Part shown: in pieces, positions 48,193 to 50,989 of the stretch
Numbering within the stretch: position 1 is the stretch's first letter
Layout: each line of letters begins with the position of its first letter
Origin: an uncultured Rhodopila sp.
GTDB lineage: Bacteria; Pseudomonadota; Alphaproteobacteria; Acetobacterales; Acetobacteraceae
NCBI GenBank assembly: GCA_903932145.1
Contig: CAIZFE010000042.1
Coordinates: 124,001-188,000 of the forward strand
Length of the DNA: 64,000 nucleotides
Direction: 5' to 3'
Made by a program: the position numbers and the translations under genes
Notes under the pieces: model-generated
What the model saw: the letters and a program-made list of their open reading frames with translations, nothing else
What the model was told of the DNA's origin: nothing
Database searches by the model: none

Positions 48193-49035
48193 TCAGGGTG
48201 GAGCGGTGGCCAGCCTCGGGCCAGGCGGGTCCAAAATGGGCGCCTCGCCGATCATATATCCCAGCACCTGGCGGACCGTATCCGGGGGCGGGTGCCTCCA
48301 GGTAAAGCTCCAGGTGTCCGGCTTTTTGTCCCGTTCTTTCTGAAACGATATCTCGCGGTGTTCTCGTATTTTAAACAGCGTCGCGAAGCTGCCGCCGTAA
48401 TTAGTCAGGGTGTCCGAGATCTGGTTCCAGAAATGGCCGGTGCAGAAACCGGGGATGACGGCGAGGTCCATGCAGATAGCGAGGATGGTACGGCCGAACG
48501 GACGGCGGCGCACCTCAGCGTCGAGTTCCTCCGGTGTGGGGATACGGAGATCGTCCGGATCAAACGCGGGGCGCTTGGGCGTCCTTTCGTCATCGCCGGG
48601 CTCGGCCGGCTCGGCCCGGCCACCCGGCACTTTGCTTCCCGGCTCTTCAGAAGGCGGCGCCCCCTTCCGCGGTTCGGCCGGCGGCTTGGCCGGAGTGCGC
48701 TCACGCGGGTCCACGTAGTAAACGAATCCGATCTCGCGGCCTTTGGCGGCGCGGGCGAGGAGATAACGCTCCAACGCCATCGCCCGCATAATACCGCGCT
48801 GCAGCCGAGCGAGAATGGCCGGCATTGCGTAGGTGCCCCAGACGGCGGCCAGCGTGGCAAATTCAACGTTGGCGGCGCGCTCCGGGACGGTCTCGACGAG
48901 GCGGCGGCCGTGACCGAGCAAAACGCGGACGACATGCAGCAGGGCGGCGAGGCGTTTCGGTATGGTGCGGCCGGCCGGGTCCTGCGCGGGATCGGACGAT
49001 GTGGGACGGGTCGTGGTTGGCGCCGTATGCTCCAT
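48193..49035 (-). CDS. Hypothetical protein with palindromic, near-leaderless promoter
   Basis: 280 residues, not recognised. Order: disordered Thr/Pro head, a helical region (residues 25-105, ALLHVVRVLLGHGRRLVETV and AILARLQRGIMRAMALERYL), a Pro/Glu linker (residues 105-165) and a C-terminal domain with RTILAICMDLAVIPGFCTGH and FATLFKIREHREISF. There is no signal peptide and no clear membrane span. The promoter sits so close to the ATG that the mRNA may have almost no leader. Confidence 0.6.
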   Translation of the reverse strand: MEHTAPTTTRPTSSDPAQDPAGRTIPKRLAALLHVVRVLLGHGRRLVETVPERAANVEFATLAAVWGTYAMPAILARLQRGIMRAMALERYLLARAAKGREIGFVYYVDPRERTPAKPPAEPRKGAPPSEEPGSKVPGGRAEPAEPGDDERTPKRPAFDPDDLRIPTPEELDAEVRRRPFGRTILAICMDLAVIPGFCTGHFWNQISDTLTNYGGSFATLFKIREHREISFQKERDKKPDTWSFTWRHPPPDTVRQVLGYMIGEAPILDPPGPRLATAPP

Positions 49036-49250: not shown

Positions 49251-49469
49251 CTAACTCAACGCCGCCACCACCTCTTGTTCGGTCGGGAAACGTCCGGTTG
49301 CCTTTTTGGAGTATGCAACCCGCCCATCGACGGTGATCTCGAAAACCCCGCCGCCACCTTTACGCAGGCTAACTCTGGCGGCCGGTTGTGTCTTCCTGAT
49401 CAGGTCCCTCGCCGCGATCGCACGCGGCTCGTAGCCTCACATTCCGCAGAATTCGATCTCAATTTGCAT
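49251..49469 (-). CDS. SelW-like (Rdx family) selenoprotein with in-frame TGA
   Basis: A 72-codon gene on the minus strand, ATG at 49469, stop TAG at 49253-49251, with an in-frame TGA at codon 11 (49439-49437). Reading: MQIEIEFCGM, then U for the TGA, then GYEPRAIAARDLIRKTQPAA, ending with GGGGVFEITVDGRVAYSKKA and TGRFPTEQEVVAALS. This is the thioredoxin-like Rdx fold (SelW/SelT/SelH). The C-x-x-U of SelW (in animals CGAUGY) lies exactly over FCGM-U-GY, and the FEITVDGRVAYSKK strand-helix is a family hallmark. GAAGGA lies ten bases before the ATG. The TGA makes ordinary gene calling miss it. Family members are small redox proteins. If TGA meant stop, the remaining ten residues would be useless. 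The possibility of a sequencing error turning Cys TGC/TGT into TGA exists; the stem-loop at 49411 argues against it. Confidence 0.8.
49411..49428 (-). promoter_or_regulatory. Candidate bacterial SECIS stem-loop after the TGA
   Basis: In the mRNA, GCCGCG-UGCGAU-CGCGGC forms a 6-bp stem with a 6-base loop. It starts nine bases after the UGA. The G at the second loop position is 16 bases after the UGA, at the start of the usual 16-37 range for bacterial SECIS loops (loop G near the 5' side). It lies inside the coding region, as bacterial SECIS elements do. A bulged U, as in Escherichia coli fdhF, is not obvious. Confidence 0.6.
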
Positions 49470-49564
49470 CTTTTGATCATCCTTCGCATCGTTTCACACG
49501 CTTGCAGCTTGGCAGCCGCCCCCGGGATAGGCAAGAAGGACCCGACCAGCAGGAGTCTTCGCCC

Positions 49565-50989
49565 ATGACCGAACGCCGTATCGTGCCCGTTATCCTGTCC
49601 GGTGGCTCCGGCACCCGGCTGTGGCCGGTTTCGCGCGAGAGTTTCCCCAAGCAGCTTTGGCCGCTGGTCTCCGACCGCACCATGATGCAGGAAACCGCGC
49701 TACGCGCTGCCTCGGCCGAATTCGCCCCGCCGATCGTCGTCTGCAACCAGGAACACCGTTTCTTGATTGCCGAACAGCTCCGCGAAGCCGGTATCGTCGA
49801 CGCGCGCATCGTGCTGGAACCGGTCGGCCGCAACAGCGCCCCCGCCATCGCCGCCGCCGCCTTTCTGGTGGCCGAGGAAGATCCCGACGCCGTGCTGTGG
49901 ATGATGGCCGCCGACGCCTCCATCACCGACAACGTGGCTTTGCAGAAGGCGCTCCACGCCGCCGCCACGGCTGCGCGCGCGGGCCATATCGTGACGTTTG
50001 GCATGAAGCCGACGGCGCCGGAAGTCGGATACGGCTATATCGAGATGGGCCATCCCCTGCCAGGTGCCGACGGGGTCTTCACCGTCGCCCGATTCCTGGA
50101 AAAACCGGATGCCGCCACCGCGGAACGCCTCGTGTCGGACGGCCGGCATCTGTGGAACTCCGGCATGTTCGTGTTCACCGCGCGGACGTTGCTGGAAGAA
50201 CTGGAACGCCACGCGCCGGAGGTTCTGCCGCCGGTTCGCCAATCGGTCGCCGATCGCGCCTCGGACCTCGACTTCATTCGCCTCGGGGTCGACGCCTTCA
50301 AATCCTGCCCGTCGATCAGCATCGACTACGCCGTCGCCGAACGGACAAACCGAGCGGCTGTGGTGCCGGCGGATCTGGGGTGGTCGGATGTGGGAAGCTG
50401 GGGCGCTTTGTGGGAGCTCGGCACCAAGGACGCGAACGGCAACGTGGCGTTGGGCGACGTGATCCTGGAGGGGGCCGAGAACTGCTATGTCCGCAGCGAC
50501 GGCATGCTGGCCGCGGTCGTCGGGCTGACAGACGCCGTGATCGTGGTGACCGAGGACGCCGTGCTGGCGATGCATCGCGGCCAGTCGCAGGACGTCAAGA
50601 AGATTGTCGAACGCCTGAAGGCCGCCGGCCGCTCCGAAGCCGTGGCACACAATCGCAGCTATCGTCCGTGGGGCTATTACGAGAGCCTGATCCAGGGCGA
50701 TCGCTTTCAGGTCAAGCGCATCGTTGTCTCGCCCGGCCGTCAGTTGTCGCTGCAAAGCCACTTCCATCGCGCCGAACATTGGGTCGTGGTGAACGGCACC
50801 GCCCGGGTCACCCGCGATGCGGAGATCGTGATCCTGCGGGAGAACGAGAGTATCTACCTGCCGCTCGGCTGCGTGCACCGGCTGGAGAACCCCGGTAAGA
50901 TCCCGCTCAGCCTGATCGAGGTGCAGTCCGGCGCCTATCTGGGCGAGGATGATATCGTCCGCTACGAAGATACCTACGGACGTGCCTGA
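49565..50989 (+). CDS. manC: Mannose-1-phosphate guanylyltransferase / mannose-6-phosphate isomerase
   Basis: 474 residues, the bifunctional AlgA/XanB/ManC type. The N-terminal nucleotidyltransferase has VILSGGSGTRLWPVSRESFP and FLEKPDAATAE, with WNSGMFVFTAR. The C-terminal cupin isomerase part has RPWGYYESLIQGDRFQVKRI and SHFHRAEHWVVVNGTARV (metal His). It makes GDP-mannose for capsule, exopolysaccharide or LPS. AGGAG precedes the ATG by nine bases. It is divergent from the selenoprotein gene (95-base gap). Confidence 0.95.
   Translation: MTERRIVPVILSGGSGTRLWPVSRESFPKQLWPLVSDRTMMQETALRAASAEFAPPIVVCNQEHRFLIAEQLREAGIVDARIVLEPVGRNSAPAIAAAAFLVAEEDPDAVLWMMAADASITDNVALQKALHAAATAARAGHIVTFGMKPTAPEVGYGYIEMGHPLPGADGVFTVARFLEKPDAATAERLVSDGRHLWNSGMFVFTARTLLEELERHAPEVLPPVRQSVADRASDLDFIRLGVDAFKSCPSISIDYAVAERTNRAAVVPADLGWSDVGSWGALWELGTKDANGNVALGDVILEGAENCYVRSDGMLAAVVGLTDAVIVVTEDAVLAMHRGQSQDVKKIVERLKAAGRSEAVAHNRSYRPWGYYESLIQGDRFQVKRIVVSPGRQLSLQSHFHRAEHWVVVNGTARVTRDAEIVILRENESIYLPLGCVHRLENPGKIPLSLIEVQSGAYLGEDDIVRYEDTYGRA

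Follow-up and report, generated by a model that had tools for sequence, protein, structure and literature searches.

A SelW-like gene with an in-frame TGA, probably encoding a selenoprotein, in an uncultured Rhodopila sp.

Results

The window analysed here, a stretch of 64,000 nucleotides from an uncultured Rhodopila sp., carries on its minus strand a short gene of the Rdx family with a TGA inside its reading frame. The features of the locus are as follows.

49251..49469, minus strand: predicted SelW-like (Rdx family) selenoprotein gene, 72 codons with an in-frame TGA, plus TAG stop
49437..49439, minus strand: TGA, codon 11, predicted to be read as selenocysteine (Sec), second position of C8-x-x-U11
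49411..49428, minus strand: candidate bSECIS hairpin, 6-bp stem and 6-nt loop UGCGAU with G second
49480..49484, minus strand: AAGGA, ribosome-site-like by its sequence, 10 nt 5' of the ATG
49565..50989, plus strand: divergent neighbour, presumably mannose-1-phosphate guanylyltransferase-like, SGGSGTRLWP motif

Read from 49469 to 49251, the gene comprises an ATG and nine further codons, the TGA, 61 codons and the TAG, and its product would run MQIEIEFCGM-U-GYEPRA...GGGGVFEITVDGRVAYSKK...ALS (in full, MQIEIEFCGM-UGA-GYEPRAIAARDLIRKTQPAARVSLRKGGGGVFEITVDGRVAYSKKATGRFPTEQEVVAALS-stop). The initial annotation had described a complete 72-residue Rdx protein on this strand if the TGA is read as Sec, with the frame continuous around it (FCGM before, GYEPRA after), the TGA at the redox position of a C-x-x-U motif and a ribosome site ahead of the ATG. 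Its coordinates proved right and we obtained the same reading, in which the motif is C8-G-M-U11 and AAGGA is a reasonable ribosome site. The gene could not appear in the list of open reading frames, which started at 80 amino acids, and a plain stop-to-stop reading ends after 10 codons, and the find adds a short gene. From base composition, the chance of 61 open codons following the TGA is about 12%, which is not rare alone; the gene stands out from chance because the family match extends to either side of the TGA, the TGA is shared with relatives and the change downstream of it is mostly synonymous in the nearest ones. In 16 of the 27 close loci, a gene with the SGGSGTRLWP motif, from which we take the neighbour's name, stands next to SelW in divergent orientation, a pairing that suggests inheritance at one place.

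The read-through product matches Pfam Rdx (PF10262) over residues 2-70 (E 1.1e-18, 67.7 bits, cut-off 22.6) and passes the cut-off of TIGR02174 for SelW/T/H (60.9 bits against 34.2). Its best NCBIfam score is to the SelT/SelW/SelH family (seleno)protein model NF041051, at 80.9 bits, yet this lies under the curated cut-off of 88 bits for that narrower SelTWH equivalog. A profile search of the source genome gave no other Rdx match, and the product has the Pfam family and the C-x-x-U motif in common with bacterial SelW-like (SELENOW-like) selenoproteins. The motif lies near the N-terminus, behind strand 1: in an AlphaFold model (pLDDT 97.1; 27-sequence alignment, U replaced by C), a strand of residues 2-8 is ended by C8, and U11 occupies a loop ahead of a helix spanning residues 14-27. 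By query length, the TM-score of the model is 0.92 with 2p0g_A and 0.70 with mouse SelW (2npb); the PDB yielded 23 matches at E <= 0.001, all to bacterial proteins related to Rdx/SelW, to MIEN1 or to mouse SelW. Fold and sequence are similar to those of mouse SelW and of the bacterial Rdx proteins 2fa8, 2oka, 2obk, 2p0g, 3dex and 2ojl, although the bacterial Rdx chains in the PDB, at 103-108 residues, are longer than the 72-residue protein here. The model thus places the predicted protein within the Rdx fold.

At 72 related loci, the codon that aligns with the SelW-like TGA is TGA in 66 and Cys (TGC or TGT) in five, and one locus is cut before it. Judged by their record titles, the TGA-bearing loci include ones from Acetobacteraceae, other Alphaproteobacteria, Desulfobulbaceae, Myxococcaceae, Planctomycetota and Anaerolineales; the nearest named ones are from Rhodopila and Acidisphaera, and Rhodopila globiformis DSM 161 (L007) has a SelW with TGA. 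The closest relative, L002, is 92% identical, and past the TGA (codons 12-69) its comparison with the window gives dN 0.048 and dS 0.607, while L003 gives dN 0.137 and dS 0.747. Across 27 comparisons of the window with relatives, two yielded no dS and the remaining 25 all had dN below dS, many of the distant dS values being near or beyond saturation. These values indicate that protein-level constraint on the gene persists past the TGA and, as dN lies below dS, that its frame has not decayed, which removes one of the objections that the initial annotation had raised against itself, a decayed frame in near relatives.

The source genome contains a full set of genes for Sec synthesis and insertion. 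Profile searches placed selA at C4:61623-62954 (554.8 bits), selB at C2:12841-14691 (409.5 bits) and selD on contig C86 (300.4 bits), all over cut-off, and a tRNA-Sec (71.8 bits; anticodon TCA by ARAGORN) lies at C4:62977-63068, 22 nt behind the selA match. SelD makes up the C-terminal portion of a protein of 703 residues (L142 3156-5267, minus strand), the N-terminal part of which we take to be pyridine-nucleotide-disulfide oxidoreductase-like. It is a Cys form, with CGAK at the position of the UxxK motif listed for Sec-form SelD in Table 1 of PMC13188914. Judged by gene content, the source cell should be able to make Sec; the initial annotation had expected a working Sec system and counted absence of the sel genes against its own reading, and these genes are all present. 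The arrangement differs from the selA-selB-selC operon that PMC1794560 describes, in its account of Alphaproteobacteria, in that selB lies on a contig other than that of selA and the tRNA-Sec.

A TIGR02174 search of 299 genomes of the bacterial family gave matches in 73, of which 32 have an in-frame TGA, 40 have no stop and one (G165) has a fragment only. The TGA-bearing gene goes together with selA, which is over cut-off in 28 of the 32 TGA-SelW genomes versus none of the 40 no-stop Rdx genomes (Fisher p 5e-16, treating genomes as independent of kinship). The four TGA-SelW genomes in which selA over cut-off was missing are G034, G139, G230 and G289, with completeness of 82%, 72%, 95% and 75%, respectively. 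The no-stop, Cys-type genes share the TIGR02174 profile with the SelW-like gene but, unlike it, occur in genomes without selA and carry a CxxC-x-W motif in all 30 loci fetched of the 40 (L094-L123); the five loci of this type that were aligned also have a three-residue insertion.

Immediately 3' of the UGA, the candidate SECIS hairpin folds with a minimum free energy (MFE) of -15.7 (50 nt). According to the legend of Fig. 2 in PMC13188914, the bSECIS model has a loop of 3-9 nt, a stem of 4-16 bp, a G at loop position 1 or 2, a spacing of 16-37 nt and MFE <= -7.5; the candidate fits in loop, stem, G and energy but not in spacing, since its UGA-to-loop distance is 14 nt. The fold is not clearly stabler than shuffled sequences (z-score -1.09), an Rfam search of the region gave no match, and the hairpin register is not conserved, that of the window differing from many relatives. 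Covariation as support was ruled out, since RNAalifold on 24 sequences of the region returned two consensus pairs, both invariant, and no compensatory changes. Of 61 TGA loci, 54 had a hairpin whose loop carries G as its first or second base, versus 21 of 35 Cys loci (Fisher p 0.0019, at a looser spacing of 12-37 nt and with relatives counted as independent). The TGA set consisted of the window and 60 of the 66 TGA loci, L031, L062, L064, L066, L071 and L072 being left out as their offset differs or their 5' end is cut. Given the looser spacing, the uncorrected kinship and the incomplete TGA set, this contrast lends weak support to a SECIS. As PMC13188914 states in its treatment of bSECIS that many resemble neither one another nor those of E. 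coli, the candidate neither proves nor refutes Sec insertion, and a SECIS hairpin downstream of the SelW UGA is plausible.

Discussion

The results of the current study support the initial annotation, and we consider 49251..49469 to be a genuine SelW-like selenoprotein gene with a probability of about 0.96, judging from sequence comparison. We propose that SelB with Sec-tRNA(UCA) would read the SelW UGA, helped by the hairpin just downstream, to give a 72-residue protein with the Rdx (thioredoxin-like) fold, in which the C8-x-x-U11 pair would alternate between reduced and selenenylsulfide forms. The CxxU motif points to a thiol/selenol redox role, so that thiol-dependent redox chemistry is the most likely job of the protein, probably fed by glutathione or thioredoxin. 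The passage of PMC1088965 that deals with SelW calls its function unclear, with a redox role suggested and an interaction with glutathione noted.

The UGA might instead be read as another amino acid by near-cognate suppression, for example as Trp, giving a selenium-free protein. The inserted residue is not identifiable from sequence alone and the SECIS is not clear-cut, which leaves this reading some room; however, the genome holds the full Sec gene set, TGA-SelW goes with selA, and all five loci that lack the TGA at this position have Cys there, so that we regard it as highly improbable. That a Cys-type Rdx gene has been broken by a TGC/TGT-to-TGA change, either as a pseudogene or through a sequencing error, has in its favour that TGA is one base from both codons and that Cys-type Rdx genes occur in the same bacterial family. 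Those genes are of a different kind, however, with CxxC-x-W, the codons past the TGA are constrained at the protein level, and the TGA is common to 66 of the 71 readable relatives, by which this explanation is in effect refuted; a sequencing error, which the initial annotation had raised in the form of a TGC or TGT in place of the TGA, is very unlikely, since 66 relatives have TGA at this codon and five have Cys. A real stop, leaving a 10-residue peptide and a downstream part that is either started internally or not produced, can be practically dismissed, as we found no point in its support and the conservation of the family extends over the first 10 codons (N-terminal consensus MxIxIEYC), residues 2-8 forming the first strand of the predicted fold.

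As a selenoprotein gene, the SelW-like gene belongs to an already well-known bacterial family and its novelty is therefore modest. SelW-like proteins are reported to rank first in abundance among selenoprotein families in the GOS survey (427 sequences; abundance results of PMC2398784) and in the Sargasso Sea survey (48 genes; corresponding results of PMC1088965), and are, by these accounts, one of the known bacterial selenoprotein families found most often in metagenomes. Table 1 of PMC13188914, a 2026 review, lists SELENOW-like as 'predicted with high confidence', the bacterial ones being only predicted. Our literature search found no paper joining Rhodopila and selenoprotein, and for selenoprotein with Acetobacteraceae it returned only papers that appeared unrelated by title and start of abstract.

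The less expected part is the apparent uncoupling of Sec use from formate dehydrogenase, to which published accounts tie it: the alphaproteobacterial and betaproteobacterial part of a 2006 survey (PMC1794560) gives fdhA, beside the selA-selB-selC operon, as the only selenoprotein of Sec-decoding members, and alphaproteobacterial sel genes are described together with fdoGHI in the relevant passage of PMC8124441. The Acetobacteraceae host here, in contrast to the FdhA family alone that PMC1794560 credits to Alphaproteobacteria in that account, has TGA-SelW. TIGR01591 and TIGR01553 searches found no in-frame TGA in the formate dehydrogenase-related proteins of the source genome (G000). The same genome has a second TGA gene, Prx-like, at C53:59562-59996 on the minus strand (L151), with one TGA in FRGFWUPYC, a U-x-x-C motif. 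SelW is thereby ruled out as the sole selenoprotein gene; the two together indicate, by gene content, at least two TGA genes in a genome where a Sec formate dehydrogenase is not visible. A similar Prx-like TGA gene, with FRGQWUPYC, occurs in G099 (L152). None of the AhpD-like (PF02627) matches in the source genome has a TGA; another genus member, G235, has a candidate AhpD-like match with one in-frame TGA (C13:26112-26342, L153).

Within the genus, selA is present in all seven genomes and TGA-SelW in four (G000, G099, G199 and G265), which have no TIGR01553 match at 1e-80 among at most eight candidates scored per genome. Among members without SelW, G235 has a TGA formate dehydrogenase, G290 the C-terminal part of one, and G156 no TIGR01553 match at 1e-80. 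Across the 79 selA genomes, TIGR01553 at 1e-80 is matched in 9 of 28 with TGA-SelW versus 36 of 51 without it (Fisher p 0.0018, ignoring kinship, leaving out G165 with its SelW fragment and scoring at most eight candidates per genome); the 45 matching genomes are not all proven Sec forms, as the match in G167 has no stop and that in G290 is a C-terminal part only. As nine genomes have both TGA-SelW and a TIGR01553 match, the idea that SelW and a Sec formate dehydrogenase strictly exclude each other was rejected. Fifteen selA genomes, G156 included, lack TGA-SelW and, under the same limit on candidates, also any TIGR01553 match at 1e-80. By this pattern of gene content, the lineage to which the SelW-like gene points seems to use Sec independently of formate dehydrogenase. 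We lean, with reserve, towards the view that the Acetobacteraceae studied here and their relatives keep Sec for small thiol-redox selenoproteins (SelW and the Prx-like U-x-x-C protein) and not for formate dehydrogenase; if true, this contradicts the older alphaproteobacterial picture of FdhA alone.

Just downstream of SelW, the window encodes a 280-residue protein (48196-49035, minus strand) that matches nothing in Pfam and no NCBIfam model above its cut-off, and tblastn found it neither in the 72 SelW loci nor in the plasmids searched. A 69% identical paralogue (L141 5507-6337, plus strand) lies just upstream of selA and the tRNA-Sec in the same genome, and the DNA similarity of the pair takes in an upstream stretch of TTGACAT type and a tail that resembles a terminator. 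The link of this protein with the Sec genes may be due to chance.
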